A stretch of 64,000 nucleotides of DNA from Ascidia mentula (lineage: Eukaryota; Chordata; Ascidiacea; Phlebobranchia; Ascidiidae), in NCBI GenBank assembly GCA_947561715.1, contig OX387199.1, positions 16,187,001 through 16,251,000 on the forward strand, in the 5' to 3' direction. A model generated the notes under the pieces. It was not told the DNA's origin. It did not search any database and worked only from the letters and a program-made list of their open reading frames with translations. Positions 4,155 through 60,823 of the stretch are shown one piece after another. Every line of letters begins with the position of its first letter. Position 1 is the first letter of the stretch. Both the position numbers and the translations under genes were made by a program.

Positions 4155-4500
4155 ATGGAAGTTCGCAATGTGTTACTTTTACTTATTATGTGTGGAATAT
4201 TCTTTTGTTCCCACGGAAAAGAGTTTGATGATAAACAGATGAAAAGCATTTTGAAGAACATTAGAGTTCTTTCGCGAGAATTCAATGATAATGTGTAAAT
4301 TCGACAAAAAAGAGATTCGAACTTTGTGAGACCTCAACACGGATTGAAAAAAAACCCAGAAAATCGACAAAAAAGTGATTTTATCAATAATCCAGAAATA
4401 GACCATCCGACGGGATTTTATTGATAATCCAGAAATAGACCATCCGATGGGATTTTATTAATAATCCAGAAATAGACCATCCCACGGGATAACGCAGGGA
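4155..4500 (+). pseudogene. Broken divergent member of the secreted repeat-peptide family
   Basis: The ATG opens a signal-peptide-like leader (MEVRNVLLLLIMCGIFFCSHGK) and a spacer, then meets TAA at 4296-4298, 47 residues in. The sister at 59545 has GAA in the matching position, so a single G-to-T change truncated this copy. The region beyond still matches the sister (RQKRDSNFVRPQHGL and a KNPENRQKS stretch) but shifts frame and runs into a 37-bp tandem repeat. The gene sits about 0.85 kb upstream of the intact canonical member at 5002, the same arrangement as 59545 and 60338. A truncated 47-residue secreted peptide could still be made, but I favour a decayed gene. Confidence 0.75.
4378..4490. 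repeat. 37-bp tandem repeat, three copies
   Basis: A segment containing taatccagaaatagaccatc recurs with starts at 4388, 4425 and 4462, a spacing of 37 bp. The sister locus near 59850 has a single copy. Because 37 is not a multiple of three, the expansion destroys any frame through the tail of the broken gene. Confidence 0.85.
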
Positions 4501-4854
4501 ATCAAATTGTTAAAATCAACTAACTTTTCTTTAAAACGCGTAGATTGTTTACTAACAGACAGGATATAGTAATTTAGCTTCCTTTGCAATGTGTTTAGCG
4601 CAATGGTGTGAAACATTTGCAAAGTTACATATTGCTTTCATAAAGTTTACTTAATTATTGTTGTCTTAGTGAAATGCATATCTACAAAGCTGACTTACCC
4701 AATTCACTTTCCGAAACCATGGATTATTATGTGAGAAGTAAAACAAGAACAGCCATATTTGTATGTAATAAGAGAAGTAGTAAAAATTTTCTCAAACAGC
4801 TTCAAGAAGATTATTGAAATTGGGCGTAGTAAAATAGAAATAGTATGGTAATGA

Positions 4855-5001
4855 TAGCACGCGATGGCGCTAAAGGACTGTATCCACTTAATTTCCGTCA
4901 ATATAAATCTTTTTTTCTCCCAGACCTCAATCACTTATACTTGGAGACGTAGGAAAGCACGAGTATTTGATATTGTAAGTTGAGAGTCAGCATACGAAAG
5001 C
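4855..5001 (+). promoter_or_regulatory. Conserved upstream block of the peptide genes
   Basis: About 150 bp before nearly every family member there is the same run of landmarks: a gatggcgctaaag box, a pyrimidine tract ending in cag (ctttttttctcccag at about 4907-4922 here), a segment like atcacttatacttgg, and tatttgatattg-agttgagagtcag just before the ATG. Matching boxes lie near 24136, 25137, 28239, 35603, 36614, 40333, 46552, 50533, 54446, 59368 and 60197. The pyrimidine tract plus AG looks like a 3' splice site, either of a cis intron with a short non-coding first exon or of a trans-splice acceptor; the upstream box could be promoter. In some copies (28377, 54585, 60338) the tract reads ccccga instead of cccag. 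Confidence 0.5.
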
Positions 5002-5487
5002 ATGGAAAGGAAAGTTTACATTGAGTTAATTTTCTTGATTTTGTGTGGATTGTGCATTTGTTCCCACGGAAAAGAGTCTAACAATAAAAGGAATTCGGAT
5101 GTTGTCCGACCTCCAAGGGGATTTAATGATAACGCAGAAAATCGACAAAAAAGGGATTCGGATATGGTGGCCCCTCCAACTGGATTCAACGATAATGCAG
5201 AAAATCGACAAAAAAGGGATTCGGATATGGTGGCCCCTCCAACTGGATTCAACGATAATGCAGAAAATCGACAAAAAAGGGATTCGGATATGGTGGCCCC
5301 TCCAACTGGATTCAACGATAATGCAGAAAATCGACAAAAAAGGGATTCGGATATGGTGGCCCCTCCAACTGGATTCAACGATAATGCAGAAATTCGACAT
5401 AAAAGGGATTCGGATAGCGTGAGACCCCCGCAAGGATTGAATGATAATGCAGAAATAGGACCTCCGACTGGATTACGAAAAAACTAA
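5002..5487 (+). CDS. Secreted multi-copy peptide precursor, 6 units (161 aa)
   Basis: The predicted protein starts with a basic n-region and a hydrophobic stretch (residues about 5-21, ending CSHGK) typical of a signal peptide. Six repeat units follow: one NSDVV-RPPRGF type, four with core DSDMVAPPTGFNDNAEN or its AEI form, and a last DSDSVRPPQGL unit running into a tail IGPPTGLRKN. Units are separated by RQKR or RHKR, a furin-type R-x-K-R site, so the likely products are peptides of about 17 residues after trimming of basic ends. No glycine precedes the basic site, so amidation is not expected. The middle units are near-perfect 63-bp repeats at DNA level (about 5152-5392), pointing to recent unequal exchange. 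Single open frame; ATG chosen because all paralogues start here. Function unknown; neuropeptide-like, defence or reproductive peptide are all possible. Confidence 0.85.
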   Translation: MERKVYIELIFLILCGLCICSHGKESNNKRNSDVVRPPRGFNDNAENRQKRDSDMVAPPTGFNDNAENRQKRDSDMVAPPTGFNDNAENRQKRDSDMVAPPTGFNDNAENRQKRDSDMVAPPTGFNDNAEIRHKRDSDSVRPPQGLNDNAEIGPPTGLRKN

Positions 5488-5489
5488 AA

Positions 5490-6902: not shown

Positions 6903-7025
6903 TCATTTGACCAAACTGGGATTTGAACCGAGGATAATCTGTACTCTTCTCTTATCCCGAACACGTTTTCTTCTAGGTATATAGGTCGGATATTTGACCA
7001 TTGCTGCCAGTTACCGCCCAAGTCG
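6903..7025 (-). repeat. tRNA-derived SINE-like copy, degenerate
   Basis: Read on the minus strand this has a box-B-like element GGTTCAAATCC (plus-strand ggatttgaacc at 6919-6929) and, about 90 bases upstream of it on the minus strand, a ggcggtaactggcagcaatgg segment resembling a tRNA 5' half with box A. The same elements in the same order occur at 43205-43316, and their 5' half recurs near 61730-61795 and in diverged form near 2200, 38805, 49000 and 57640. This suits a tRNA-derived SINE family. Confidence 0.5.
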
Positions 7026-7804: not shown

Positions 7805-9402
7805 CTAGCGGCGTTTAATATTTAGCAGTGGAATGTGGAGAAATATTGCCAAAAGTTGCATCAGCGCTGCAACAATAAACGCATATCGAATGTCGCTGAG
7901 CTCATCGACAAGCATACCTGAACAAAAACAAAATATGACACAAATATAGCGATTAACCTTGCAATGGTTCCTTACCCACAAGTGGGGTAACCCACGATCC
8001 TAAAATTGAGTATAACAGACCGCTGGTGTTGAAGCCCCAGGTCAAGTTTTTGTCGTCTAATACACTGGCCATAACTTGTGCGTACATACTGTGTATTCCA
8101 CCGCTCACTAAGCTATGAGCAATGCAGTTGAGTATAAGACCCACAAGGTTATGCACGAACCACATAGAAGCTGTAACAAAAGCCCCCATCGTTCCGGTGA
8201 TGATCAGAACCCAAACAATATTAACGTTCTTCCTGTCACCAAGAATCCCGAATGCTATCCTTGCAAAAATGCTTACTCCGCTGTATATTGAAAGGAGCAG
8301 TGACGCCATCATAGGTTCCACATCCAGTGACAGTGAATAGGGCACTAGAAACCTCATGTAGAGTAACCAAGTACTAAGCATGAGTAACCATATCACCGAA
8401 AATATCCAAAACTTTGGCAAAACCAAAACCTCTTTAAGTGGTTTTAAGGCTTGTCTCCAGTTCTTGTCTTCAGTAGAGTTTTCTTCCGATGGAGTTGGGT
8501 CAGAATTTAATAATATAGGTCTGTACAAAGACGCAGCCACTGCACAATTCAATGTCAGGCCACCTAGTATTAATACAGCTCCTCTCCAGTTGTAAAATTC
8601 GATCAGGAATTGCATGAAAGGTGCCAGTGCCAATAAACCCACAGGTGTTCCGGACAATGCTAGTGATATAGCCATTACTCTTTTCTTTTTGAAGTATCGG
8701 GGGATTAACGCTGCATATGTTACCCCACAAATGGAAAGAATTACACCTAAAAAAATTTTATATAGTTGTTCTGAAAAAAATATTATAAAATGAGATTTGC
8801 GTCATATAATAAGATGCTTTTGTAAGTCAATTTGAGACAGGCAAAGGCTTGCTCTTCTATATCTTAAAAACTATATGTCCATATAGATATCATTTAAGTT
8901 GACAGAAAAAGTTTTTTTGGTGTCGTGTTGTAACCTTAGAGATTAATATTCTGAGAAAGGAAATGAAAACTACTCTCACCAGTTGCAAGCCCAACAAACA
9001 CGAAAACCAGTACCAGACTATTTGCCAATGAAGCAACAGAAATGGAAATTCCGCATAATATCGATACACATAAACTTGTTCCTCGAAATCCCATCTTAGC
9101 TATCAGTGTTCCAGTGGTAACATCTACATACACGTAAGTTCGGCATGGCAACGGTTTTAGGTATTAGGTACGAAGTAGGTCTTACATCCAAATATTCTTC
9201 CAAACTCTGTACACCCAGTCAGCCACGTAACTTCGCCAAGACCAACGTCGAATTCTCGCATCAGTGGTTCATAAAACAATGGGTAAACAGACATTGAACC
9301 GAAGGTTAACATGGCTGTTATAAAAACTGCTGCAACTACAACCCAACCCCATCCACCATCAGGTGGGTCTACACGTCTCATTGCTCTGCGACTTTCCTGC
9401 AT
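7805..9402 (-). CDS. SLC16/monocarboxylate-type transporter, four coding exons (414 aa)
   Basis: Exons on the minus strand: 9402-9186, 9123-8980, 8746-7976 and 7917-7805; introns of 62, 233 and 58 bp all use GT-AG and keep frame, summing to 1245 nt. The protein is a major-facilitator carrier of the plasma or an internal membrane. Family marks are DGGWGWVV at residues 15-22 at the start of helix 1 and RYFKKKRVMAISLALSG (from about residue 137) around helix 5, both SLC16 signatures. A hydrophilic loop rich in D, E and S (TPSEENSTEDKNW) separates the two six-helix halves, and the last exon encodes a final helix ending IKRR. SLC16 members move monocarboxylates, thyroid hormone, aromatic amino acids or carnitine; substrate cannot be told here. 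An in-frame stretch upstream of 9402 is open but has no ATG, so I start at MQESRRAMRR. Slightly short for the family, otherwise whole. Confidence 0.9.
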
Positions 9403-10300: not shown

Positions 10301-10306
10301 TCTTGG

Positions 10307-17813: not shown

Positions 17814-18543
17814 TTATCGTTACGCATGGATGCTTTGTGTTAATACGGAGCATTATAAGAAAGATAAGCTTTATGTAATCCAATTTACTTCAAATGGTGG
17901 TGCTCTTTTACAAGTCAATAAGAACCCCCGTCATTTTTTTTGCACGCCAACAAAATATACAGATGGGTATTTATCGTTTAACGCTAGTCAAAAATGAGAT
18001 TTGTAGTATTTTGTAAATGGTGGCTTATGGTTCTTACTTTTGCACCTGGAAACGCGTCGAAAATTTCCTCCCAGTAATAGCAGCAAGGATTTTCGATAAC
18101 TGCGTCCACATTTCCATACATCCGTCTCATATCTTCCATTCTGAAACCTTCCCTCACTTGTTTGATCCAATCATCACCAAGGTACCAGAAGTTTTCCATG
18201 ATGTCATAAACTTCGTATCCAAGCAGCGTCAGAGCCGCATTAATTGATTTTGTTCCAGTCTTCGGCAAACCAACAACCACCACCTTCATTTTTATCGTTT
18301 AGTTAAGCTGAAATCCGCTGAAACAGGGTTTTATAATGATCCACGTTTAATATGTTTGCAAAGTGCCAACTCAGTCCGTGTATTTATGTTCAAAAAATTC
18401 TTTGATATTCTGCTCTATGGGGTATCTCCTATTCTATTTTCTACAATATACTTGTTCACTTGATGCACTGTATACCGTCTTCCTGCAATAATGTATGACG
18501 ACTGTTCAACTCAACTGCAACGTTTCTCATACCTCTCCTTTAG

Positions 18544-20414: not shown

Positions 20415-22617
20415 TCATGGAACAAGTTCGCCAACCCCTGATATATGGCATAAAATTTTGTAAACTGCGAAGGCAAACAATGAAAACAAACACCCCAGTG
20501 AGAATTTTAACTCCATGTCCAATCGTTTCATGATTGGATTTTCTTTTCTCATTTCTTGAACAAAATTTCCTCGTTTATTCTTGTGAGGAAAGGGAACATC
20601 TGGAATGGGGAGACCGAGGAATTCACACAGCGGTTTCCAACCTTCTTTCACTTCATAAACCAAAAGCTGCTCCTTAGGAACTACCTGAACATAAAGTTGT
20701 GTTTTTTATTAATAAAAAAATAACAATCTGTTTATTGATTATTTTCCAAAGCAATCTTTTACCACACTCCCAAAAAAACTTTCAAAAACTTTCAATCTTT
20801 TACCACACATGCTGGCAACAGCACATGAATATATGCTCGCTTAACCTGCCCGCCAAACTGAGTTCATGCCGGCCAAAGCGGATGATAATCAACCGCTCCA
20901 CTTTGATAATCGCTGTTGTAAACAGTACAAAGTATCATATGTGATTGATCACATAACTAGGAAAGATACAGGGGAATACATACATGTTTCACGTGCTTGC
21001 AATGTCTCCGATACATTCTTCTTGTCGACTCCTCGTGTCTTGGGTAAATTTTGTACCATGGCCACCGATTGCATCCATTTACGTTGACTTTTGCGCCGAC
21101 TAAAAAGTTGTCAAATGTTTAACTCGTACATTTTCCCCTTGTTGCCGGAAGTCACAATTACAAATACACATAAGAAAATGCACACAGCTTAACTGTTCCT
21201 TAAAGTTAACTACGTTAAAATGTAAATAATATGATATGACCTGTTTCCTCAAAGAATGCCCGACAACGTCGGCCGTTGTAAGTAAGAAGGGCCATAAGTC
21301 GCATGATAATGTTGTTATTTGTGTGGACAGTTTGATACTGAAAACTTTGGTACCAAGAATCCTCTGGCCTTACGGTCAAAATAACCTGACGAGACAATGA
21401 TAAGTAGATAAAATCATTCTATGAGGTAAATGCAGGTTTTTGTGTGCAATAATGTATGTGCAATATTTTGTAACGTGGTTATCTGAACCTGCCTGCTCCT
21501 GATTTTAAACCGGCATCCTCAAAAACCAAATGAACAATAATCCGCTTTGCGAAACCTGATAATGAGCACGATGTAGATGTTGCATATGACTGCAAAAAAT
21601 CGTAAAAATTAACTGTTTTGTTTCGCCAGATTGGCCTCTTTCTTGTTATTAATATACCTGGCACCGTCAATGAGTTATTGTCTAAGCATGTTTTCCGTCT
21701 TATGAGTCTTTTACGACGTAAATTGGCCGGGTCCTATCCTAAGTTTATTTTATATGAATCAAAACTAATTAAGGGTGAAGTTGTGCAACTTCAACCAACC
21801 TTTAGTCGGATACGTTTGACCACTGGCGGGAAAATAGTGAAAAGCAAAAACTCACTGAGTTAAATCTTTTACACGGTGAACTGGGAGTAAACTCACACTT
21901 GTTTCCACATGCCTTGTGGTCATATAGCGTATCTCTTTTACTGCTGAGGATGCTTGTTCCGGACATTATTTGAATTCTTGTATTTTGAATTTTTGTGTTT
22001 TAATGCAATGATATTTCGTTTGTAGTGTATGGTACATTACACAAACATCTTCTACGGCACATAAAATGCGAATGGTTACACTTTATATTTACTCTCAGCA
22101 CGTCTTTTTTTCCCAAATTCTCACACATGACTATCATTAAGTGTGACGTCATGATAACTTAGCTAATATTTATACGATTTTTTGTCAACCAAACTATCCA
22201 AAATGGTCAAGATTTACGTCAAATGTTGGTGGTCTTTCACAGGTTAAGAACCCCCGTCATTTCTTTCGGCAAACTAACGAAATATAAATTGGGTATTTAG
22301 CGTTTAAAACTACTCAAAAACGAGATTTTTGTAGTATTTTGTCTATGGTGGGTTATGGTTCTTACTTTTGCACCTGGAAACGCGTCGAAAATTTCCTCCC
22401 AGAAATACCAACAGGGACTATCGACCACTGCGTCCACATTTTCATACATCCGTCTCATATCTTCCATTCTAAAACCTCCCCTCACTTGTTTAATCCAATC
22501 ATCACCAAGGTACCAGAAGTTTTCCATGCAGTCATAAACTTCGTATCCAAGCAGCGTCAGAGCAGCATTAATTGTTTTTGTTCCAGTCTTCGGCAACCCA
22601 GCAGCTATCACCTTCAT
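20415..22617 (-). CDS. Sulfotransferase copy B (Sulfotransfer_4 type), 260 aa, intact
   Basis: Exons 22617-22366, 21385-21241, 21099-20984 and 20684-20415; all GT-AG, summing to 783 nt with no stop. It should transfer sulfate from PAPS to a hydroxyl or amine; acceptor unknown. The PAPS-binding loop GLPKTGTKT is at residues 7-15, the VRPEDSWYQS block at 89-98, RWPWYKIYPRHEEST in exon 3 and VKEGWKPLCEFLGLPIPDV near residue 183. Residues 232-252 are a hydrophobic span (LGCLFSLFAFAVYKILC) with a short tail, so the enzyme is probably anchored by its C-terminus rather than soluble. Length is normal for this family. Chosen ATG is the first in frame and is shared by all copies. Confidence 0.88.
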
Positions 22618-22639
22618 TTTTATTGCTTAGTAAAGCTAA

Positions 22640-24190
22640 AATCCGCGGAAACACACCACAGATTCTTAAAAGTTTTATGAAATGTTTTACGTTGAATGCG
22701 TTTAGTGCCAACTCAGTCCGTGCTTTTATTGGTCAAACAACTCTTTGACCTTCTCCTCTACGCTTTATCTCCAATTCTCCAATATTCTCTTTCACTTGAT
22801 TGGACTATATACCGTTCCGCTGCAATAATGTTAGATTACTTTTTGATGATAAAAAAACTTGTTTGCTGATTACAATTTTTTATTTTGCAGATAACGCTTT
22901 TCTCACCCTTGTTAAAATGTGAGAGAAATCAAAACATTACATACACCTGACATCTTCTGTACAATGAACCCAGAATCGTAAACTGTGTTTCTGACACAGG
23001 CCTGTTGTTTTCTAACCGTTACGCCTCATTGGACGATTACGAGATGTAACCTACTTAAGCAGAAAAAATTACGGTCTAATAGGCAGAGCGTTCACCAATC
23101 GCAGGCGTGTAAACAATAAAAAATACCGCGATGTACAAGAACATTGATATTGTAACTTGATAGAATGATTTACGCGAAATTATGTTGTTTGTTCTGTTTA
23201 AGGTCAAAGTTACAGTGTAAATTTATTTCGTTGTTTCGAAAAGCGTAACCTACTATCATCGTTTTGAGGTTGCAGAAAACGCGTAAAAGGCAAACCCGTT
23301 GGTCAATGCCAACCTTCACAGGCGGGAGTCATTCGTGACACATTTTTTCTTGTTTTTCGTTATGTTGTAATTTTAACGTTTTTCGCGTATGGATCTTCCA
23401 CATCCTGCAAATTCGGTCCATATCCTTCCAGTACTTCTGTCTGCTCATAGTGGTTAATTTACTCACAACTTCACCTTTGACACGAGGCGAGGGTATCGCT
23501 GTGCAAATTTCGCGTGGCTAAGTTTTGCTATGTGCGACCGTAGAAGGCGCCTTACTTTCACTGATTTAGGATTGATAGTCGAAGAGCTCGTCCGTGCGCC
23601 TCAGGGCACTTGAAATTAAAAAAAAAGTTTTTCTTGAGACTGGCCACGTTTTTGCTTGCCGTACTTCTTGCGGCACAAACATTGTGACTGTAAACCAAAA
23701 ACGTTTTGACATCACTTATTTGCAGAGCCCTACCTGCTCTGGACATTAGGAGCATGCAAAAGTTAGGTGCGTATATAATTCGCTACATATGAGAAAACCA
23801 TATAATTTTCAGTGAAGGAAACAACCCAAAAAAGTTATATTTATTGACGAAATCGAGAATTGCATTTGCAAGTTGCCACCTAATAACAAAACTATTGATT
23901 TAGAAAAGCAATTCAATAGCATGTTGTTTCTCCATTGCGCTTAAACATAAATACAATACAGGTTTGAGAGTATTGTAATCTTGGAAAGAAGTTTTGCTAT
24001 AAGTTTCTTAGTCCATTGGTATAAACGAGTGGGGCTCACCAAGTATAACCTTAAAGGCCATGTACGTATATGCAAACAATAATGAGATAAACTTTCTCAA
24101 ACATCTTTAGGAAAAAAATGGTAAAGAAAGCACACGATGGCGCTAAAGGGCTGTATGATAGCGTGATCAAAGATTTTGGATATTGTGATT
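22640..24190. other. Duplicated non-coding stretch upstream of sulfotransferase B
   Basis: Promoter side of sulfotransferase B, then sequence shared with 34130-35660. The minus-strand frames at 23558-23755 and 35033-35221 are similar to each other simply because the DNA is duplicated; they differ by indels out of step with codons. A tgacatcacttatttgcaga segment near 23709 belongs to a repeat that recurs before most peptide genes. Confidence 0.5.
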
Positions 24191-24196
24191 GAAAGC

Positions 24197-24460
24197 ATGG
24201 AAGGAAAGTTCGCAGTATAGTAATCTTACTACTTTTCTGTGGATTGTGCTTTTGTTCCCACGGAAAAAACGTTTGATGATAATCGGCTGACAGCGATTTT
24301 GAAAAACATTTAGTTCACTCGCAAGTATTTAATGATGTGCAAATTCGACTAAACAGGGACTTCGAGTAATGTGGAACAGATTCAACAACAATGCAGAAAA
24401 TCGACAAAAAAGGGATTCAATAATAATGCAGAAATAGGACCTCTGTTGGGATTACATAAT
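24197..24460 (+). pseudogene. Decayed divergent member of the peptide family
   Basis: The leader (ttctgtggattgtgcttttg, then ttcccacgg) and pieces of repeat units (aatcgacaaaaaagggattc) are plain, but the start has lost one A compared with intact paralogues (atggaaggaaag for atggaaaggaaag), a TGATGA follows the leader and further stops and lost units come after. Sits 1.08 kb upstream of the intact gene at 25273. The copy at 35666 has the same lesions. Confidence 0.85.
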
Positions 24461-25272
24461 TACAAAATTGTGGAAAAATACTAAACTATCCTTAAAACTT
24501 GAAATATAGTAGTTTGGCTTTTTTTGCACCGTGCTCAGCGCAGTGATGGCAGAAACTATTAATCTTACCTGACTTTTGCCTGGAACATGGCTAGGTTTTT
24601 GCCTTTCCGCCTTCATTGCGACACGGACTCTGTACCGGACCAAAAAACTCCAATAAACGTTTAGATATCACCTATTTGCAGAACTGTACCAGCTCTTGGT
24701 AGTGGATATTGTAAATAAGTAATTTATGTGTGTAGCAAAATGTTACGTGCATATTTAATTCGCTGAATATTAAAATCACATAGAATTTTCAACATAGGAA
24801 ATAACCGGAGAAATTTACATTTATTGACGAAATCGAGACTAGCATTTACAAGTGGGCACCAAAAAATATTGTTATTTTAACAAAACTACATAATGCAATG
24901 TTGTTTCTCCTGCGTTAAAATGTAGATACAACACATGACTGTCAGTATTGTAAACGTGCTGAGAAGTATTGCTATAAGTTCCAAAACCATTGATATTAAT
25001 AATTGAGATTTACCAAGTAAAACTAGAAAATCCACATACATATACAATGAGAAAGGTGGTAAAAATTTTCTCAAACATCTTCAAGAAGAATATTGAAACT
25101 GGGCGCAGTAAAATAGAAACTGTATGGAAATGATAGTGGCGCTAAAGGGTTGTATGTGCATCACCTCCTTCAGTGTCAAGTCCCTTTTTTCCCCCAAACC
25201 AAAATCACTTATACTTGGAGACGTATGAAAACACGAGTATTTGATATTGTAAGTTGAGAGACTTCGAAAAAC

Positions 25273-25641
25273 ATGCAAGGGAAAGTTTGCATCACGTTAA
25301 CTTTCCTAATTTTGTGTGGATTGTGTTTTTGTTCTCACGGTAATGATTTGAACAATAAACGGCTGAAAACGAACTCGGAAAACATTGGAGGTCTTACACG
25401 ATTATTCGATGATATTGTGGAAAATCGACAAAAAAGGGATTCGGATAGTGTGAGACCTCCTCCACCAGGTTTCAATGATAATGCGCAAGATCGACAAAAA
25501 AGGGATTCGGATATGATGGGACCTCCAAAGAGATTCAATGATAATGCAGAAGATCGACAAAAAAGAGATTCGGATAGCGTGAGACCTCCGAGGGGATTCA
25601 ACGCAGGAATATCCCCTCCGCGGGGATTACGGAAGGACTAA
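25273..25641 (+). CDS. Secreted multi-copy peptide precursor, 3 units (122 aa)
   Basis: Starts MQGKVCITLTFLILCGLCFC, a signal peptide to about residue 23. Next is a family-atypical propeptide (LKTNSENIGGLTRLFDDIVE) shared with the gene at 36752 and similar to the divergent gene at 59545 (VKTILKNIRVVSRGFND), then three units separated by RQKR: DSDSVRPPPPGFNDNAQD, DSDMMGPPKRFNDNAED and DSDSVRPPRGFNAGI ending in the fixed tail PPRGLRKD. The first unit has an extra proline, so its core is one residue longer. Single exon, plus strand, preceded by the conserved upstream block near 25137. Product unknown. Confidence 0.85.
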   Translation: MQGKVCITLTFLILCGLCFCSHGNDLNNKRLKTNSENIGGLTRLFDDIVENRQKRDSDSVRPPPPGFNDNAQDRQKRDSDMMGPPKRFNDNAEDRQKRDSDSVRPPRGFNAGISPPRGLRKD

Positions 25642-28376: not shown

Positions 28377-28646
28377 ATGGAAATGAAAGTACACATTTCG
28401 TTACCTTTCTTGATTTTGTGTGGATTGTGCTTTTGTATCCACGGAAAAGAGTTAAACGATAAAAGAGATTTAGATATTGTCCGACCTCCAGCTGGATTCA
28501 ACGATAATGTACAAAATCGACAAAAACGAGATTCGGATATGGTGAGACCTCCGCGGGGATTCAATGATAATGCAGAAAATCGACAAAAAAGGGATTCGGA
28601 TATGGTGATACCTCCACCAGGATTCAGCGACAATGCAGAAAATTGA
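28377..28646 (+). CDS. Secreted repeat-peptide precursor cut short by a stop (89 aa)
   Basis: Signal peptide MEMKVHISLPFLILCGLCFC, then units DLDIVRPPAGFNDNVQN, DSDMVRPPRGFNDNAEN and DSDMVIPPPGFSDNAEN, the first two followed by RQKR. The third should be followed by CGA (R), but reads TGA, so the protein ends there. Beyond the stop the frame continues with QKRDSNLVGPPNGPSME, without the normal tail. Two or three peptides could still be released. It is either a recently truncated allele or a pseudogene. The gene at 54585 is its closest relative in upstream sequence (27600-28376 matches 53760-54584). Confidence 0.65.
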   Translation: MEMKVHISLPFLILCGLCFCIHGKELNDKRDLDIVRPPAGFNDNVQNRQKRDSDMVRPPRGFNDNAENRQKRDSDMVIPPPGFSDNAEN

Positions 28647-34111: not shown

Positions 34112-34129
34112 TTTTATCGCTTAGTAAAG

Positions 34130-35660: not shown

Positions 35661-35665
35661 AAAGC

Positions 35666-35930
35666 ATGGAAGGAAAGTTCGCAGTATAGTAATCTTACTA
35701 CTTTTCTGTGGATTGTGCTTTTGTTCCCACGGAAAAAACGTTTGATGATAATCGGCTGACAGCGATTTTGAAAAACATTTAGTTCACTCGCAAGTATTTA
35801 ATGATGATATGCAAATTCGACTAAACAGGGACTTCGAGTAATGTGGAACAGATTCAACAACAATGCAGAAAATCGACAAAAAAGGGATTCAATAATAATG
35901 CAGAAAAAGGACCTCTGTTGGGATTACACA
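35666..35930 (+). pseudogene. Decayed divergent member of the peptide family
   Basis: Sister of the copy at 24197 and shares its lost A after the start, the TGATGA after the leader and the same missing units, so both descend from one already broken gene. It adds a 3-bp difference near 35802 (gatgatatg for gatgtg). Lies 1.09 kb upstream of the intact gene at 36752. Confidence 0.85.
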
Positions 35931-36751
35931 ATTACAAAATTGTGGAAAAATACTAAACTATCCTTAAAACTTGAAATATAGTGGTTTGGCTTTTTTTGCA
36001 CCGTGCTCAGCGCAGTGATGGCATAAACTATTAATCTTACCTGACTTTTGCCTGGAACATGGCTAGGTTTTTGCCTTTCCGCCTTCATTGCGACACGGAC
36101 TCTGTACCGGACCAAAAAACTCCAATAAACGTTTAGATATCACCTATTTGCAGAGCTCTACCAGCTCTTGGTAGTGGATATTGTAAATAAGTAATTTATG
36201 TGTGTAGCAAAATGTTACGTGCATATATAATTCTCTGAATATTAAAAGCACATTGAATTTTCAATAAAGGAAATAACCGGAGAAATTAACATTTATTGAC
36301 GAAATCGAGTCTTGCATTTACAAGTGGTCACCAAAAAATATTGTTATTTTAACAAAACTACATGATGCAATGTTGTTTCTTGTGCGTTAAAATGTAGATA
36401 CAACACATGACTGTCAGTATTGTAAACGGGCTGAGAAGTATTGCTATAAGTTCCAAAACCATTGATATTAATAAGTGAGGTTTACCAAGTAAAACTAGAA
36501 AATCCACATACATATATAATGAGAAAGGTGGTACAATTTTTCTCAAACATCTTCAAGAAGAATATTGAAACTGGGCGCAGTAAAATAGAAACTGTATGGA
36601 AATGATAGCACACGATGGCGCTAAAGGGTTGTATGTGCATCACCTCCTTCAGTGTCAAGACCCTTTTTTCTCCCAGACCAAAATCACTTATACTTGGAAA
36701 CTTATGAAAACACGAGTATTTGATATTGTTAGTTGAGAGACTTCGAAAAAC

Positions 36752-37258
36752 ATGCAAGGGAAAGTTAGCATTACGTTAATTTTCCTAATTTTGTGTGGAT
36801 TGTGTTTTTGTTCTCACGGAAATGATTTGAACGATAATCGGCTAAAAACGATCTCGGAAAACATTGGAGGTCTTACACGATTATACAATGATATTGTGGA
36901 AAATCGACAAAAAAGGGATTTGGATAGTGTGAGACTTCCTCCACTAGGTTTCAATGATAATGCAGAAGATCGACAAAAAAGGGATTCGGATAGTGTGAGA
37001 CCTCCTCTACCAGGTTTCAATGATAATGCAGAAGATCGACAAAAAAGGGATTCGGATATGATGGGACCTCCTCTACCAGGATTCAATGATAATGCAGAAG
37101 ATCGACAAAAAAGAGATTCGGATATGGTGGGACCTCCAAACGGATTGAACGATAATGCAGAAAATCGAAAAAAAAGAGATTCGGATATGGTGGCACCTCC
37201 ATCCGGATTCAACGAAAACGCAGGAATATCCCCTCCGCGGGAATTACGGAAGGCCTAA
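36752..37258 (+). CDS. Secreted multi-copy peptide precursor, 5 units plus propeptide (168 aa)
   Basis: Signal peptide MQGKVSITLIFLILCGLCFC; propeptide LKTISENIGGLTRLYNDIVE; then units DLDSVRLPPLGFNDNAED, DSDSVRPPLPGFNDNAED, DSDMMGPPLPGFNDNAED, DSDMVGPPNGLNDNAEN and DSDMVAPPSGFNENAGI with tail PPRELRKA. Separators are RQKR, except RKKR before the last unit. Duplicate of the gene at 25273, but with two more units, so unit number changed after the segmental duplication. Three of the units carry the extra residue between the prolines and GF. Conserved upstream block near 36614. Function unknown. Confidence 0.85.
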   Translation: MQGKVSITLIFLILCGLCFCSHGNDLNDNRLKTISENIGGLTRLYNDIVENRQKRDLDSVRLPPLGFNDNAEDRQKRDSDSVRPPLPGFNDNAEDRQKRDSDMMGPPLPGFNDNAEDRQKRDSDMVGPPNGLNDNAENRKKRDSDMVAPPSGFNENAGISPPRELRKA

Positions 37259-39780: not shown

Positions 39781-42660
39781 TTTTGTTTAACCTGGCCAGG
39801 TTTTTGACCGCCCGTCTTTATTGCGACACGGACTCTGAACCGGTAAACAAAAAAACTCCAATATCTTCCATAAACGTTTTGATATCACTTATCTACTCTA
39901 CCATCTCTGGGTCGTGGACAATAAAAATATGTATGATTTGTGGGTATCAAAGTGTTAGGTGAGTATCTAATTAGCTGAATATCAAAAGCCCACAAAATTA
40001 TCAATAATGGAAATAACCGGAGAGATTTACGTTTACTGTCGTAATCGAGACTTGTATTTGAAAGTTGCCGCCTAAGAATAAAGTTATTCTTTTAACGAAC
40101 AATTAAATGCCATGTTGATTCTCGTGCGTTGTCAGTATTGTAAAGGTGTTGAGAAGTTCTGCTGTAAGATTTCAAAACTATTTATATCAATATGTGAGAT
40201 TTACCACGTAAAACTACAAAAAGCAATATATGTATGCAATAAGAGATGCCGTAAAAAGTTTCTCAAACAGCTTCAAGAAGATTATTGGAATTGGGCGTGG
40301 TAAAATAGAAACAGTATGGTAATGATAGCACACGATGGCGCTAAAGGATTGCATCTTCTTCACTTCCAATATTATGAAGTCCTTTTTTCTCACAGACCAA
40401 AATCACCTATGCTTGAAGTCGTATGAAAACAGGAGTATTTGATACAGAGGTCTAAAAGTCTAGATTCGATAAGCATGGAAAGGAAAGTTCACGTTGCCTT
40501 AATTTTCTTGATTTTGTGTGGAATGTGCTTTTGTTCTCACGGAAAAGCGTTCAACGGTAAAATGGATTCAGATATTGTCCGACATCCAGCCGGATTCAAC
40601 GATAATGCAGAAGATCGACAAAAAAGGAGTTCGAATATGGTGGCAGCTCCAAAAATCCCAATGGGATTCAACGAATACGCAGGAATAGCGCCTCCGGAGG
40701 GATTACGCAAGGACTAAAATTGTGAAAAAATAGTAAACTCTTCTTGAAATGTGTAGATTTTAACTAACTCAAATGAAATGTAGTAGCTTGTCTTTCTATA
40801 TACCGTGTTTAGGCCTGCCGACGTTATTCAAAGTAACCATTTGTTACTGCAAACATTTCTCATAATATTGTAACAAAGAAACAAATTTTAAAATCTAACC
40901 TTCAAAATGTAACGACATGAAATATTTAATCTTTAAAAAAAGTAAAAATGACGATTTAAACTGTGACTTTGCAACTTGCAAATTTCCGTAAACACGACGC
41001 TTATCTGGCTTAGCTGCAAAAAACAAATACAAAACCAAGTACAAAAGTTTTATGTGAACTTCTGTGATTTATTTTACACATTTCAGATCCTCTTTTAGAT
41101 CTAGTGGGGTACTAGTTGAGGAATGAAACAGATGTAGATACTGAATGTTGGTCTCCAAATCACGAAATTTATAAAAATTGATAAGCGGATTGGAAGTAAT
41201 TACATAACCTAATGTTAAGATTTACGAACAACAGAATATCCTCGTCCCAATCAAACGCGAGGTTTGTCCCATCATGTCATGGTCCAATGCACATCCACAA
41301 AGCAGTCTAACCCAATTTCGTGCTAAACACGGCTAAGTGAACGCCAAGTTAGCGAAAACAATCCTGACACACCTCCATGTACAACTTTGCAGCTTGGTAT
41401 CCGACTTTTGGATGGGCAGGCAAGCGGAACCCTTTTTCGTAAAGGAAATTCATCGTTTAATGTTTTACATGCATCTGTAGTCAAAACACAGAGTTTGGCA
41501 TTGCAAACTTTCCTAAATATGTGCTTTTTTGCTTGATATACTTTTGACATGCCAAATTTTTTTTTGCAATTTTTAACATCATTGAACGACTGAGTAAGTT
41601 TCAATTTTTGGCAACAGTTTGATGACTCGTGGTCGCGCCAATCTTATACCCAAACACGAAGTGAAACCTCAATTGAAATAAAGCTATGTTTTACGAATTT
41701 ACATTGTGTCTCCACAAACGCTTATGTGAATAATGTTATGATGGCTAAATTTTCAAAAACCTTGAAAATCTATCGACAAGATTTGTATCCATTGTAATCC
41801 GAGAATGAAGTGTAAATGACGATTTAGATGTATTACCTTTTTGTAACACAACGCTTACCTCGCTTAGCTGTAAAAAGCAAATACAAAACAAATTTTGGTA
41901 TGAACTTTTTTCTTTATTGTAAGGATTTCTGAAAAGCTCAACGGCGACGTAAAAGAATTAGATGATGTGCAACAAAATTTGCAAATCTCCAGAACACAAT
42001 TAGGTATAAAAAATAAAAGAGGCATATCTACAGCGCATAAAGTATAATAAAATGAATTATAGTTGAGGTTTCAAGTCCTCGACCACAAGAATGAATTGTC
42101 CAATCACGACACGGTCCAATGCACGTCGGTAAGTGCGAGCTTACTAACACAAAACTGCGGAACACTGTTGAGTGAACCCCAAGTCAGCAAAAACAAACAT
42201 GACACACCTCCAAATGCAGCTTTGTAGTCTATTTTTTAGATGGACAGTCAAGCGGAACCTTTTCGCGTGATCTCGGACAAAGAACACTTAATGTTCTGGC
42301 AATGTAAGTTTTCCTGAAGATTAAGCCAAAAGAGTATGAGTTGTACCCTTTTTTGCTTTACATACCAATAGCATACCAATTCATATTTGCAAATTTGTTA
42401 AAACTGACTTTTAGATGCAACACAGTAATAAGTACGTACGCAACATTTTAGCCGCCATCCCTAAGAGCAACCAAGCGGAAAACTTTTATTGATCTTAAAA
42501 AAAATTATATGGGCCATACCTGACGGCTTGATAAATACATTTCCTACACTGCTGTTTTACAGAGATTTGTGGTACGATATAACGACTTTATATTTGTATT
42601 TTTGCGTAATTACCATGATCAGCATGAAATATGGGCGCAAAAATTCTGTATATATAAGAC
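38300..42660. repeat. 10-kb-spaced duplication, left copy
   Basis: This stretch, including the peptide gene at 40475, is repeated at about 48600-53010 with the gene at 50674 in the matching place. Within it the two genes differ chiefly by unit number (two against five). Confidence 0.85.
40475..40717 (+). CDS. Short secreted peptide precursor, 2 units (80 aa)
   Basis: Signal peptide MERKVHVALIFLILCGMCFC (cleavage probably near CSHGK), then MDSDIVRHPAGFNDNAED followed by RQKR, then SSNMVAAPKIPMGFNEYAGI and tail PPEGLRKD. The second unit has three extra residues between AP and GF. Sister of the gene at 50674: identical leader, but internal units are missing, consistent with loss by unequal exchange. 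I start at the ATG shared by all paralogues rather than an upstream in-frame one at 40439. Probably still makes one or two peptides. Confidence 0.8.
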   Translation: MERKVHVALIFLILCGMCFCSHGKAFNGKMDSDIVRHPAGFNDNAEDRQKRSSNMVAAPKIPMGFNEYAGIAPPEGLRKD

Positions 42661-44751: not shown

Positions 44752-44920
44752 ATGGAAAGGAAAGTGACATTTAAAAATTTTGTGTGGATTGTGCTTTTGT
44801 TCGCACGGAAAAGAGTTTAACGATATTGGGCTAAAAACGATTTTGAAGAACATTGGTGTTCTTTCGATATAATTCAATGATAATGTAGAAATTCGACAAA
44901 AAAGAGCTTCTTTCTGATTA
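44752..44920 (+). pseudogene. Decayed member of the peptide family
   Basis: Begins atggaaaggaaagtgacatt like the intact genes, but lacks about 18 bases of the leader and is out of frame by the ttgtgtggattgtgcttttg segment. It resembles the divergent class in its spacer (ctaaaaacgattttgaagaac). After half a unit (aattcgacaaaaaagagctt) it is joined directly to the family's 3' flank. It lies 1.9 kb upstream of the intact gene at 46677. Confidence 0.8.
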
Positions 44921-46676: not shown

Positions 46677-47225
46677 ATGGAAAGTAGAGTACACATTACG
46701 TTACTTTTCATGATATTGTGTGGATTCTGCTTTCGTTCTCACGGAAAAGCGTTCAACGATAAAAGGGATTCGGATATGGTGAGACCTCCATTGGGATTCA
46801 AGGATTATGCAGAAAATCGGCAAAAAAGGGATTCGGATATGGTGGCACCTCCATCGGGATTCAAGGATAATGCAGAAAATCGACAAAAAAGGGATTCGGA
46901 TATGGTGGCACCTCCAAATGGATTCAAGGATAATGCAGAAAATCGACAAAAAAGAGATTCGGATATGGTGAGACCTCCAAAGCGATTCAAGGATAATGCA
47001 GAAAATCGACAAAAAAGAGATTCGGATATGGTGAGACCTCCAAAGGGATTCAAGGATAATGCAGAAACTCGACAAAAAAGAGATTCGGATATGGTGGCAC
47101 CTCCAAATGGATTCAAGGATAATGCAGAAATTCGACAAAAAAGAGATTCGGATATGGTGAGACCTCCAGTCGGATTCAACAAAAACATAAAAATAGCGCC
47201 TCCGCTGGGATTACGCCAGGACTAA
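46677..47225 (+). CDS. Secreted multi-copy peptide precursor, 7 units (182 aa)
   Basis: Signal peptide MESRVHITLLFMILCGFCFR to about residue 24, then seven units: DSDMVRPPLGFKDYAEN, DSDMVAPPSGFKDNAEN, DSDMVAPPNGFKDNAEN, DSDMVRPPKRFKDNAEN, DSDMVRPPKGFKDNAET, DSDMVAPPNGFKDNAEI and DSDMVRPPVGFNKNIKI with tail PPLGLRQD. All separators are RQKR. This copy carries FKD in place of FND in nearly every unit, a sign that units within one gene are homogenised together. Conserved upstream block near 46552, although its box reads gatggcgctattgg. An upstream in-frame start at 46641 is not conserved. Confidence 0.87.
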   Translation: MESRVHITLLFMILCGFCFRSHGKAFNDKRDSDMVRPPLGFKDYAENRQKRDSDMVAPPSGFKDNAENRQKRDSDMVAPPNGFKDNAENRQKRDSDMVRPPKRFKDNAENRQKRDSDMVRPPKGFKDNAETRQKRDSDMVAPPNGFKDNAEIRQKRDSDMVRPPVGFNKNIKIAPPLGLRQD

Positions 47226-49990: not shown

Positions 49991-52900
49991 ATCTGGCCAG
50001 GTTTTTGACCGCCCGTCTTTATTGCGACACGGACTCTGAACCGGTAAACAAAAAAACTCCCATATCTTTCATAATCGCTTTGATATCAATTATCTACTCT
50101 ACCATCTCTGGATTGTGGACAATATAAATATAATTGATTTGTAAGCAGCAAAGTGTTAGGAGAGTATCTAATTAGCTGAATATCAAAAGCTCACAAATTT
50201 ATCAATAATGGAAATAACCGGAGAGATTTACGTTTACTGTCGTAATCGAGACTTGTATTTGAAAGTTGCCGCCTAAGAATAAAGTTATTCTTTTAACGAA
50301 CAATTAAATGCCATGTTGATTCTCGTGCGTTGTCAGTATTGTAAAGGTGCTGAGAAGTTCTGCTGTAAGATTTCAAAACTATTTATATTAATATGTGAGA
50401 TTTACCACGTAAAACTACAAAAAGCAATATATGTATGCAATAAGAGATGCGGAAAAAAGTTTCTCAAACAGCTTCAAGAAGATTATTGGAATTGGGCGTG
50501 GTAAAATAGAAACAGTATGGTAATGATAGCACACGATGGCGCTAAAGGATTGCATCTTCTTCACTTCCAATATTATGAAGTCCCTTTTTCTCACAGACCA
50601 AAATCACCTGCTTGAAGTCGTATGAAAACAGGAGTATTTGATATAGAGGTCTAAAAGTCTAGATTCAAAAAGCATGGAAAGGAAAGTTCACGTTGCCTTA
50701 ATTTTCTTGATTTTGTGTGGAATGTGCTTTTGTTCTCACGGAAAAGCGTTCGACGGTAAAATGGATTCAGATATTGTCCGACATCCAGCCGAATTCAACG
50801 ATAATGCAGAAGATCGACTAAAAAGAGATTTGGATATTTTGTTACCTCCAGTCGGATTCAACGATAATGCAGAAAATCGACTAAAAAGAGATTTGGATAT
50901 TTTGTTACCTCCAAACGGATTCAACGATAATGCAGAAGATCGACGAAAAAGGGATTTGGATATGCTGAGACCACCACCAGGATTCAACGATAATGCAGAA
51001 GATCGACAAAAAAGGAGTTCGAATATGGTGGCACCTCCAATGGGATTCAACGAATACGCAGGAATAGCGCCTCCGCGGGGATTACGCAAGGACTAAAATT
51101 GTGAAAAAGTAGTAAACTCTTCTTGAAATGTGTAGATTTTAACTAACTTAAATGAAATGTAGTAGCTTGTCTTTCTATATACCGTGTTTAGGCCTACCGA
51201 CGTTATTCAAAGTAACTATTTATTACTGCAAACATTTCTCATAATATTGTCACAAAGAAACAAATTTTAAAATCTAACCTTCAAAATGTAACGACATGAA
51301 ATAATTAATCTTTGAAAAAAGTAAAAATCACGATTTAAATTGTGACTTTGCAACTTGCAAATTTCCGTAAACACGACGCTTATCTGGCTTAGCTGCAAAA
51401 AACAAATATAAAACCAAGTACAAAAGTTTTATGTGAACTTCTGTGATTTATTTTACACATTTCAGATCCTCTTTTGGATCTAGTGGGGTATTAGTTGAGG
51501 AATGAAACAGATGTAGATACTGAATGTTGGTCTCCAAATCACGAAATTTATAAAAATTGATAAGCGGATTGGAAGTAATTACATAACCTAATGTTAAGAT
51601 TTACGAACAACAGAATATCCTCGTCCCAATCAAACACGAGGTTTGTCCCATCATGTCATGGTCCAATGCACATCCACAAAGCTGTCTGGCCCAATTTCGT
51701 GGTGAACAGGGCTAAGTGAACGCCAAGTTAGCGAAAATAATCTTGACACACCTCCATGTACAACTTTGCAGCTTGGTATCCGACTTTTGGATGGGCAGGT
51801 AAGCGGAACCCTTTTTCGTAAAGGAAATTCATCGGTTAAATGTTTCACATGTATCTGTAGTCAAAACACAGATTTTGGCATTGCAAACTTTCCTAAATAT
51901 GTGCCTTTTTGCTTAATATACTTTTGACATACATTTTTTTTGCAATTTTTAACATCATTGAACGACTGAGTAAGTTTAAATTTTTGGCAACAATTTGATG
52001 ACTCGCGGTCGCGCCAATCTTATACCCAAACACGAAGTGAAACCTCAATTGAAATAAAGCTATGTTTTACGAATTTACATTGTGTCTCCACAAACGCTTA
52101 TGTGAGTAATGTTATGATGGCTAAATTTTCAAAAACCTTGAAAATCTATCGGCAGGTAAGATTGTAATCCGAGAAAGAAGTGTAAATGACGATTTAAATG
52201 TATCACCTTTTTGTAACACAACGCTTACCTCGCTTAGCTGTAAAAAGCAAATACAAAACAAATTTTGGTATGAACTTTTTTACTTTATTGTAAGGATTTC
52301 TGAAAAACTCAACGGCGACGTAAAAGAATTAGATTATGTGCAACAAAATTTGCTAATCTCCTGAACACAATTAAGTATAAAAAATAAAAAAGGAATATTT
52401 ACAGTGCATAAAGTATAATAAAATGAATTAGAGTTGAGGTTTCAAGTCCTGGACCAAAAGAATGTCCAAATCACGACACGGTCCAATGCACGTCTGTAAG
52501 TGCGAGCTTACTGACACAAAACTGCGGAACACTGTTGAGTAAACCTCAAGTCAGCAAAAACAAACATGACACGCCTCCAAATGCAGCTTTGTAGTCTATT
52601 GTTTGGATGGACAGTCAAGCAGAACCTTTTCGCGTGATCTCGGACAAAGAACACTTAATGTTCTGGCAATGTAAGTTTTCCAGAAGATTAAGCCAAAAGA
52701 GTATGAGTTGTACCCTTTTTTGCTTTACATACCAATAGCATACCAATTCATATTTGCAATTTGTTAAAACTTAACTGACTTTTAGATGCAACACAATAAA
52801 TGCACGTACGCAACATTTTAGCCGCATTCCCTAAGAGCAACCAAGAGGAAAACTTTTATTGATCTTAAAAAAAATTGTATGTGCCATGCCAGACGGCTTG

Positions 52901-54584: not shown

Positions 54585-55193
54585 ATGGAAAGGAAAGTAC
54601 ACATTTCGTTACTTTCCTTGATTTTGTGTGGATTGTGCTTTTGTACACATAGAAAAGAGTTCAACGATAAAAGGGATTCGGATATTGTCCGACCAGCGGG
54701 ATTCAACGATAAGGCAGAAAATCGACAAAAAAGGGATTCGGATATGGTGGGACCTCCACCAGGATTCAACGATAATGCAGAAAATCGACAAAAAAGGGAT
54801 TTGGATATGGTGGGACCACCAGCGGGATTCAAGGATAATGCAGAAAATCGACAAAAAAGGGATTCGGATATGGTGGGACCTCCAATGGGATTCAACGATA
54901 ATGCAGAAAATCGACAAAAAAGGGATTTGGATATGGTGAGACCACCAGCGGGATTCAAGGATAATGCAGAAAATCGACAAAAAAGGGATTCGGATATGGT
55001 GGGACCTCCACCAGGATTCAACGATAATGCAGAAAATCGACAAAAAAGGGATTTGGATATGGTGAGACCACCACGAGGATTCAACGATAATGCAGAAGAT
55101 CGACAAAAAAGGAGTTCGAATATGGTGGCACCTCCAATGGGATTCAACGAATACGCAGGAATAGCGCCTCCGCAGGGATTAAACAAGGACTAA
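54585..55193 (+). CDS. Secreted multi-copy peptide precursor, 8 units (202 aa)
   Basis: Longest member. Signal peptide MERKVHISLLSLILCGLCFC, then DSDIVRPAGFNDKAEN (one proline short), followed by alternating DSDMVGPPxGFNDNAEN and DLDMVxPPxGFKDNAEN units, then DLDMVRPPRGFNDNAED and SSNMVAPPMGFNEYAGI with tail PPQGLNKD. All separators are RQKR. The alternation suggests that the array grew by duplication of a two-unit (126-bp) block. Last unit equals that of 50674, upstream region equals that of 28377, so the gene is a mosaic. An in-frame upstream ATG at 54447 lies in the conserved non-coding block and is rejected as start. Confidence 0.88.
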   Translation: MERKVHISLLSLILCGLCFCTHRKEFNDKRDSDIVRPAGFNDKAENRQKRDSDMVGPPPGFNDNAENRQKRDLDMVGPPAGFKDNAENRQKRDSDMVGPPMGFNDNAENRQKRDLDMVRPPAGFKDNAENRQKRDSDMVGPPPGFNDNAENRQKRDLDMVRPPRGFNDNAEDRQKRSSNMVAPPMGFNEYAGIAPPQGLNKD

Positions 55194-59450: not shown

Positions 59451-59544
59451 CTAATGAATGATCGACGTTTATACTTGGAAACGTACATGAAAACACGAAT
59501 ATGCGATATTATGTATTAGGAATTTGGATATTCTGATTGAAAGC

Positions 59545-59850
59545 ATGGAAGTTCGCAATATGTTACTTTTGCTTATTATGTGTGAAATATTCATTTGTTC
59601 CCACGGAAAAGAGTTTCATGATAAACGGGTGAAAACGATTTTGAAGAACATTAGAGTTGTTTCGCGAGGATTCAATGATCATATGGAAATTCGTCAAAAA
59701 ATGGATTCGGACTTTGTGAGGCCTCAACCCGGATTGAACAACAACCCAGAAAATCAACAAAAAAGTGATTCGGATATTTTGTTACCTCCCTTTATATGCA
59801 ATGCAAAATATAGAGGAAACAAAGATTGGGATATTGTGAAACCTCAATGA
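59545..59850 (+). CDS. Divergent secreted repeat-peptide precursor (101 aa)
   Basis: Leader MEVRNMLLLLIMCEIFIC, then CSHGK as in the canonical genes, a propeptide VKTILKNIRVVSRGFNDHME, and three degenerate units: MDSDFVRPQPGLNNNPEN, SDSDILLPPFICNAKY and KDWDIVKPQ. The cleavage motifs are worn (RQKM, QQKS, RGNK), so furin-type processing looks poor, and the gene ends early; a further tail-like piece (NPEIDHPTGLGRD) follows out of frame. Full-length sister of the broken gene at 4155. It sits 0.8 kb upstream of the canonical gene at 60338. It may act as an unprocessed secreted protein or be in decay. Confidence 0.65.
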   Translation: MEVRNMLLLLIMCEIFICSHGKEFHDKRVKTILKNIRVVSRGFNDHMEIRQKMDSDFVRPQPGLNNNPENQQKSDSDILLPPFICNAKYRGNKDWDIVKPQ

Positions 59851-60337
59851 TAATCCAGAAATAGACCATCCGACAGGATTAGGCAGGGACTAAATTTGTG
59901 AAAATCAACTAACCTTTCTTTAACACGCGTAGATTGTTTACTAACAGACAGGAAATAGTAATTTAGCTTCCTTTGCAATGTGTTTAGCGCAATGGTGTGA
60001 AACATTTTACCCAATTTACTTACCCAATTAATTTTCCGAAACCATTGATTAATATGTGAGAAGTATAACTCACCATGTAAAACTAGAACAGCCATATTTG
60101 TATGTAATAAGAGAAGTGGTTCTTTTCTCAAAGAGCTTCAAGAAGATTTTTGAAATTGGGCGTAGCAAAATAGAAACATTATGTTAATGATAGCACACGA
60201 TGGCGCTAAAGGAGTGAATCCACTTAATATCCGTCTTTAAAACCCCTTTTTCTCCCCGACCAAATTCACTTATACTTGGGAACGCACGAAAACACGAGTA
60301 TTAGGTATTGTTAGTTGAGAGTCAGGATTTAAACAGC

Positions 60338-60823
60338 ATGAAAATGAAAGCACACATTACGTTACTTTTCTTGATTTTGTGTGGATTGTGCTTTTGTTCT
60401 CACGGAAAATCATTCAACGATAAAAGGGATTCGGATATGGTGAAACTTCCATCGGGATTCAAGGATAATGCAGAAAATCGACAAAAAAGAGATTCGGATA
60501 TGGTTGGACCTCCAAACGGATTCAACGATAACGCAGAAAATCGACAAAAAAGAGATTCGGATATGGTGGGACCTCCAAACGGATTCAACGATAACGCAGA
60601 AAATCGACAAAAAAGAGATTCGGATATGGTGGGACCTCCAAACGGATTCAACGATAACGCAGAAAATCGACAAAAAAGAGATTCGGATATGGTGGCACCT
60701 CCAAACGGATTCAACGATAACGCAGAAAATCGACAAAAAAGGGATTCGGATATGGTAAAACCTCCAATGGGATTCAACGAATACGCAGGAATAGTGCCTC
60801 CGCGGGGATTACGCAAGGACTAA
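60338..60823 (+). CDS. Secreted multi-copy peptide precursor, 6 units (161 aa)
   Basis: Signal peptide MKMKAHITLLFLILCGLCFC, then DSDMVKLPSGFKDNAEN, three copies of DSDMVGPPNGFNDNAEN, one DSDMVAPPNGFNDNAEN and DSDMVKPPMGFNEYAGI with tail PPRGLRKD. Every separator is RQKR. The three identical units are also near identical at DNA level (63-bp period, about 60486-60680), another sign of recent expansion. Conserved upstream block near 60197. An in-frame upstream start at 60308 is not shared by paralogues. Confidence 0.88.
   Translation: MKMKAHITLLFLILCGLCFCSHGKSFNDKRDSDMVKLPSGFKDNAENRQKRDSDMVGPPNGFNDNAENRQKRDSDMVGPPNGFNDNAENRQKRDSDMVGPPNGFNDNAENRQKRDSDMVAPPNGFNDNAENRQKRDSDMVKPPMGFNEYAGIVPPRGLRKD

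Follow-up and report, generated by a model that had tools for sequence, protein, structure and literature searches.

The stretch analyzed here (the window) comprises 64,000 nucleotides of the ascidian Ascidia mentula (contig OX387199.1, positions 16,187,001 to 16,251,000; C52:16187001-16251000 in the notation used below), and holds a tandem family of genes for candidate secreted precursors of multiple peptides. The tunicate origin of the genome is visible in its COX1 gene, on contig C79, where glycines appear at the expected places with AGA and AGG translated as Gly, as in the mitochondrial code of ascidians, and fail to appear with any of six other tables. The family has fourteen copies here, all of them on the plus strand: eight are open genes of a single frame, one is truncated, and five are decayed. 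The open genes were taken from a listing of open reading frames (ORFs) together with stop-to-stop translation, and the decayed copies from a translated search of the window. An earlier sequence-only reading had given the same total and the same strand (14/14), both of which stand, but its division into nine open and four decayed genes, besides the truncated one, does not. The ninth open gene of that count is probably the 101-residue frame at 59545-59850, classed here as decayed because it has no intact R-x-K-R site. The copies, in window positions, are the following:

4158-4560 (3' limit approximate), plus strand: decayed precursor copy with stops and frame breaks (translated search)
5002-5487, plus strand: open precursor gene, 161 residues, five R-x-K-R sites (ORF listing and translation)
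24202-24419, plus strand: decayed precursor copy (translated search)
25273-25641, plus strand: open precursor gene, 122 residues, three sites, MQGK-type leader (ORF listing)
28377-28646, plus strand: truncated precursor, 89 residues, two R-x-K-R sites, TGA at a cleavage-site Arg codon
35671-35891, plus strand: decayed precursor copy (translated search)
36752-37258, plus strand: open precursor gene, 168 residues, five sites (ORF listing)
40475-40717, plus strand: short open precursor gene, 80 residues, one site (ORF listing)
44777-44905, plus strand: decayed precursor copy (translated search)
46677-47225, plus strand: open precursor gene, 182 residues, six sites (ORF listing and genome search)
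50674-51096, plus strand: open precursor gene, 140 residues, four sites (ORF listing)
54585-55193, plus strand: open precursor gene, 202 residues, seven sites, the frame being open also upstream from 54447 (ORF listing and translation)
59545-59850, plus strand: degenerate copy, 101-residue frame with a leader-like start (translated search, at about 59563)
60338-60823, plus strand: open precursor gene, 161 residues, five sites (ORF listing)

All open copies in the window hold a hydrophobic leader, of which MERKVHITLLFLILCGLCFCSHGK is a consensus-like example, followed by repeated units of 21–22 residues closing in R-x-K-R (for example, DSDMVAPPTGFNDNAENRQKR), and they end in -PPRGLRKD or a near variant. 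The leader closes in S-H-G in most array copies, and its 12-residue hydropathy maxima lie between 2.43 and 3.22 in 29 copies chosen beforehand by their leader pattern. The 63–66-bp arrays are also called independently by Tandem Repeats Finder, with scores of up to 733. Along the nine leader-bearing frames, the sites number 5, 3, 2, 5, 1, 6, 4, 7, and 5; the single site of 40475-40717 lies at the low end of the two to eight units proposed previously. In the truncated gene, the TGA stands where other copies have the cleavage-site Arg codon CGA. Many of 22 aligned copies have a splice-acceptor-like polypyrimidine-AG stretch (ttttttctcccag/acc) within a conserved 5' flank, at a distance of about 80 bases from the ATG, which would be compatible with a 5' intron or with trans-splicing.

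The family extends well beyond the window. A search of the genome (195.8 Mb in 79 contigs) with the gene at 46677-47225 returned at least 159 matches, itself included, whole-genome counts being lower bounds (150 of 159 candidates scored). Outside the window, the best match is to an identical protein encoded about 205 kb downstream (E 1.3e-118), and the next one has an E-value of 6.9e-89; chance is therefore excluded as an origin of the family. Among the matches listed, 34 start at leader residue 1 and one starts at leader residue 5 (C52:16265693, minus strand); all of these fall within C52:16173718-16550733, and one match contains a stop. The array thus marked out is about 380 kb long on the window's chromosome. 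More distant relatives lie at C52:17826576-17869087, 1.3 Mb away, and at C67:7459626-7474670, on another chromosome. The part of the array that was read covers 260 kb (C52:16160001-16420000) and holds 22 ATG-started copies, chosen by their leader and at least one site; 18 of these 22 keep the conserved end -G-L-R-K-D or a near variant, and of the remaining four, one is the window's truncated gene and three end early or lose the frame. Taken together, the ORFs, the translated search, Tandem Repeats Finder, and the genome matches confirm the tandem multi-copy family that had been proposed.

Growth of the array by block duplication can be followed within the window. Decayed copies recur approximately 0.8–1.9 kb upstream of intact ones, and blocks such as 22275-25589 and 33772-37071, which are 93% alike over 3.3 kb, show that intact copies were duplicated as one block with a decayed copy and the adjoining sulfotransferase exon. 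On a larger scale, the segment C52:16227475-16242034 is repeated at 16432888-16447426, with a spacing of about 205.4 kb and 99.77% identity over the 3546 bases compared. This pair would represent either a recent duplication or a leftover haplotypic duplication; according to PMC11109543, haplotypic duplication was purged from the assembly. Peptide yield would be increased both through gene number, by way of the tandem blocks, and through the number of units in a gene, which reaches 226.

The distribution of substitutions among the units bears on their processing. Units were phased by DNA alone, with no residue filter, which yielded 145 of them in 24 genes, namely 22 genes of the 260 kb and loci L004 and L007. 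The in-register set comprises 102 units from 23 genes, after exclusion of 24 gene-final units and 19 units spaced by 66 bases. In this set, a dibasic [KR]R end is found in 101 of the 102 units, and Arg occupies the first position of R-x-K-R in all 102. The ratio of replacement to silent substitution (dN/dS) is 0.02 for the Lys-Arg codons, 0.13 for R-x-K-R, and 0.80 for the rest of the core, and reaches 1.52 (gene-resampled 1.28–1.95) at positions 6 and 9, which stand beside a Pro-Pro that is itself almost fixed. Removal of the two frame-broken genes leaves these values nearly as they were (Lys-Arg 0.02, core 0.81, positions 6 and 9 1.52). The count over all 145 units, which includes 22-residue units out of register, gives 0.08 for Lys-Arg, 0.35 for R-x-K-R, 0.74 for the core, and 1.41 for positions 6 and 9, whereas a residue-filtered set of 92 units, in which the required basic end biases the cleavage-site figure downwards, gives 0.13 for R-x-K-R, 0.71 for the core, and 1.80 for the two positions. 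The same order is thus found in three counts, with the cut sites fixed, the core weakly constrained, and two positions free. Leaders show a dN/dS of 0.59 over 17 distinct sequences. This pattern points to cleavage of the predicted precursors, and the retention of dibasic sites while two core positions diversify bears out the earlier proposal of a diversified set of peptides.

Among the distant relatives, the giant gene on C67 is a single frame of 5014 codons with 226 pieces of exactly 22 residues each, which fall into 21 distinct sequences such as SEENVLPPLPGFNSNMENRQKR. A pattern count of its sites required [KR]R, and plain 22-residue stepping, used as a recheck, found that all 226 pieces close in Lys-Arg. 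Of 227 C67 sites, 75 have Cys in place of the first Arg of R-x-K-R, and the Lys-Arg never changes. Because of this, the constant feature is the dibasic Lys-Arg rather than a strict furin R-x-K-R. About one third of the units of the C67 gene (L009-L010) thus have one Cys ahead of the cut, and the peptides bearing it would be able to pair by disulfide. A second giant relative, of 1622 residues, lies on C52, and 69 of its 71 steps close in Lys-Arg, the rest being one RQER and the tail. It has silent variants, above all at the cleavage-site Arg, and with a ratio of 1.12 across 10 distinct unit sequences its core is unconstrained. Frames resembling reverse transcriptase and GIY-YIG adjoin the giant genes (L014, C52:17862643-17865000, minus strand), with a Penelope-type likeness noted by inspection.

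These long uniform arrays, of 5014 and 1622 residues, are what would be expected if the family encoded an uncut secreted structural repeat protein of the tunic, mucus, or egg coat, in which Lys-Arg is merely part of the repeat. However, constraint within the unit is strongest at the Lys-Arg codons, these remain invariant in C67 next to the position changed to Cys, and copies of one or two units, such as 40475-40717, also stay open, all of which make a structural protein very unlikely.

The C67 units differ by 16 distinct point substitutions, all amino-acid-changing and none silent, where 3.4–4.5 silent variants would be expected (P 0.005–0.023); the same substitutions read in the two other plus-strand frames give 3 and 7 silent variants, with 3.3–4.4 expected. 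A built-in control for this open array is provided by a dead giant array at C52:16339545-16351154 (L026-L028), with approximately 182 units, mostly of 62–63 bp, in which a frame-shifting one-base deletion is present in 120 of the 182 units and further one-base insertions or deletions are found elsewhere. Its 17 distinct substitutions comprise six silent, ten replacement, and one stop at the cleavage-site Arg, and its silent/replacement spectrum differs from that of the open C67 array (Fisher P 0.018). The dead array is also a clear case of a disabling deletion propagated by unit turnover. Such spread of a deletion, the duplication of decayed copies along with intact ones, and the near lack of internal silent divergence in C67 would all fit an old gene for a secreted protein that has expanded in the manner of a satellite, is for the most part not translated, and has its frames kept open by homogenization. 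On the other hand, constraint is codon-specific, the dead and open arrays differ in their variant spectra, and 18 of the 22 copies selected by leader and site keep both the leader and the conserved end, so that an expansion of this kind is regarded as highly improbable.

The genes are probably best described as secreted multi-peptide precursors from which convertases would cut peptides some 19 residues long, acidic and without amidation, themselves probably released in bulk as effectors or signals. In such precursors, it is established that a leader routes the chain into the secretory pathway, where convertase cleavage is followed by carboxypeptidase trimming. In the ascidian chain, the hydrophobic leader would provide entry to this pathway; cutting after each Lys-Arg would fall to prohormone convertases, and a carboxypeptidase would strip the two basic residues. 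The predicted products are acidic unamidated peptides of approximately 18–20 residues, with the pattern D/S-x-x-x-V-X-P-P-X-G-F-N/K-x-x-x-E-x-R-Q, where both X beside the prolines are variable. The genome holds seven matches to P_proprotein, the P-domain of proprotein convertases, the mean net charge is −1.9 over 113 distinct pieces, and no Gly for amidation precedes the cut in the units inspected. The analysis thus demonstrates the anatomy, the number of copies, the spread of the family, and its pattern of conservation and variation, whereas secretion, cleavage, and trimming are inferred. The leader and the repeated units favor the secreted multi-copy architecture put forward in the sequence-only reading, which as a whole is partly supported: its peptides of about 17 residues are not what is predicted here, as a cut at R-x-K-R with carboxypeptidase trimming would leave ...NAEN-R-Q, of about 19 residues.

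Several points weigh against this interpretation. The signal peptide is putative, as it rests on hydropathy and inspection and not on a trained predictor. Cleavage sites are not invariant everywhere, as seen in the RQER of the 1622-residue relative and in two units of the gene at C52:16173718, which close in RQKS. Positions 6 and 9 were picked after their variability had been seen, and the pooled pairwise dN/dS takes no account of gene conversion or relatedness. Sixteen variants underlie the C67 test, and the absence of silent ones among them could also reflect DNA-level constraint or chance. Homogenization of units can hold a frame open in the absence of selection, and the C67 units also lack stops in another frame and, for the most part, on the opposite strand. 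By itself, the open frame is weak evidence, because a stop-free homogenized repeat stays open throughout and other frames are open as well. Finally, at least two frame-broken arrays are found in the 260 kb, so large arrays also die.

The use of the peptides is the most speculative part of the interpretation. There is about an even chance that they act as effectors or as externally released signals, which fits better than a conserved hormone because of the bulk yield, the fast turnover, and the variable cores; a plain endocrine or neuropeptide use appears doubtful. Neuropeptide genes are typically single-copy and conserved. Were these ordinary neuropeptide or hormone precursors, their products would be released internally and act on receptors, and copy number would only set the dose. 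The anatomy does match textbook multi-copy precursors, convertase P-domains are encoded in the genome, and chains that yield several related peptides, such as CiLF-1 to -8, are described for Ciona in PMC12441681. This explanation is nevertheless unlikely in view of the missing amidation Gly, the two core positions with dN/dS above 1, the existence of tens of paralogues marked by decay and duplicated in blocks, unlike conserved single-copy genes, and the lack of a convincing match to 12 short peptides (60 uncorrected comparisons).

Sperm-activating peptides of sea urchins derive from multi-copy precursors. Those of the egg jelly (PMC9265791) provide a functional analogue for another possibility, namely that the ascidian products are gamete, settlement, or mate-recognition peptides, shed to sea water or egg coats and diversified for species or individual specificity. 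The variety of the pieces would suit such a role (87 distinct among 127 internal pieces, from the 22 genes and loci L002, L004, and L007), as would a 1987 paper, cited in PMC11109543, dealing with how an extract of adult tissue affects metamorphosis in A. mentula. The related Ascidia callosa is reported to be self-fertile, so self-sterility would not be the driver in that species; a recognition role is considered rather unlikely. Equally speculative is a broader proposal, in which the 380-kb array and the giant genes of 70–226 units would form a tunicate-specific repertoire, a bulk-shed cocktail differing between individuals or species, shaped by unit turnover and by selection beside Pro-Pro, and serving recognition, settlement, or microbe control; the C67 variation would then be selected diversity and not drift.

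Membership of a named family is not shown, and the precursors are filed only under the general kind of multi-peptide secreted precursors. Pedal peptide/orcokinin-type peptides lack amidation. Their precursors likewise hold related peptides between dibasic sites (PMC4772807, PMC5818035), although five unit types compared with three known members gave no significant similarity (p 0.09–0.83). Apidaecins are cationic and are made from multipeptide precursors. Apidaecin-type defense precursors, named in PMC5850478, resemble the present genes in amplifying proline-containing peptides in one precursor, but the ascidian peptides are mostly acidic and show no significant match (p 0.45–0.79). Among ascidian systems, CiLF and CiYFV/L of Ciona are also precursors with several related peptides; as described in PMC12441681, and compared by description only, they differ in being single precursors with up to eight peptides. 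The Ciona hemocyte peptide CiEMa is likewise a lineage-restricted secreted ascidian peptide of similar size, but PMC10888236 describes it as amidated and with unusual cleavage sites, and no similarity was found (p 0.57–0.73).

The yeast precursor MFalpha1 provides the most marked contrast, no kinship being implied. It is also a secreted precursor with near-identical tandem peptides. According to PMC5850478, the number of its units is variable, which the authors attribute to unequal exchange, and affects yield, output reaching a plateau at about six repeats among the one to eight tested; 135 frames held 16 silent unit variants and two peptide-changing ones. The C67 gene reverses this balance, with 16 peptide-changing and no silent variants, and its 226 units are nearly forty times the plateau. 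If expressed and cut, the ascidian genes would represent an unrecognized family of peptides from near relatives of the vertebrates and include a 226-copy precursor far above the one to eight copies tested in yeast. They would also provide a test of selection on peptide copies within one gene, possible because open and frame-broken arrays of similar size share one genome. Poly(A) RNA-seq from the same specimen is public (ERR10378036, PMC11109543).

The earlier reading, which could not place the core in any described peptide family, is upheld on this point, in that Pfam, PDB sequences, the protein database, and paper text gave no convincing match. In the protein database, neither one precursor nor a 12-member alignment, for which the 8000 candidates with most shared words were scored, found a match, a silence that says little because this database seems poor in animal proteins (the neighboring transporter, used as a query, gave one match, at 49%). 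PDB sequences gave nothing for one precursor and one weak match for a two-unit query (E 0.11). Viral contigs gave no match, and two short Butyrivibrio matches in GTDB genomes (25 and 46% identity) were taken as chance. Six unit strings did not occur in paper text, and none of the titles and abstracts listed in a literature search met the family.

With ten family proteins, all Pfam matches fell below the curated cut-offs except calcitonin/CGRP. Those to DUF1720, Tal_Pri, RbcS, Ribosomal_L32e, SARG, DUF4460, and KIND were taken as chance, and tarsal-less/polished rice (PF21899) reached 12.6 and 24.2 bits on two precursors, under its cut-off of 27. Calcitonin/CGRP peptides are defined by an N-terminal Cys ring and an amidated C-terminus. 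The match to this family (PF00214), of 28.1 bits against a cut-off of 22.3 on a 669-residue part of the 1622-residue relative, was rejected: the score was only summed over repeats, with no single stretch passing, and the protein has only two Cys, both in the leader. The bradykinin core is RPPGFSPFR. Some units share its P-P-G-F and not the remainder, and bradykinin against five unit types gave uncorrected p values of 0.043, 0.043, 0.128, 0.027, and 0.040 among the 60 comparisons, the other 55 of which gave none under 0.08. A cationic antimicrobial peptide was also rejected, as 107 of the 113 distinct pieces have a charge of 0 or below.

In the window, searches for Rfam families at gathering scores and for tRNAs found none. 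Between the precursors, in common duplication blocks, lie first-exon frames of Sulfotransfer_4 genes at 17984-18289, 22297-22617, and 33794-34111 (all on the minus strand), the first two identified by Pfam. A functional link between these exons and the precursors was rejected, with at least 150 matches to the Sulfotransfer_4 family genome-wide. An SLC16-like transporter gene of the MFS type is found at 7953-9402 (minus strand; MFS_1 by Pfam, SLC16 by inspection), with five more copies in the 260 kb. Finally, an element of about 600 bases at 2301-2900 is repeated, the 260 kb containing seven copies in all; besides this one, the window has two more, near 57746 and 61956.

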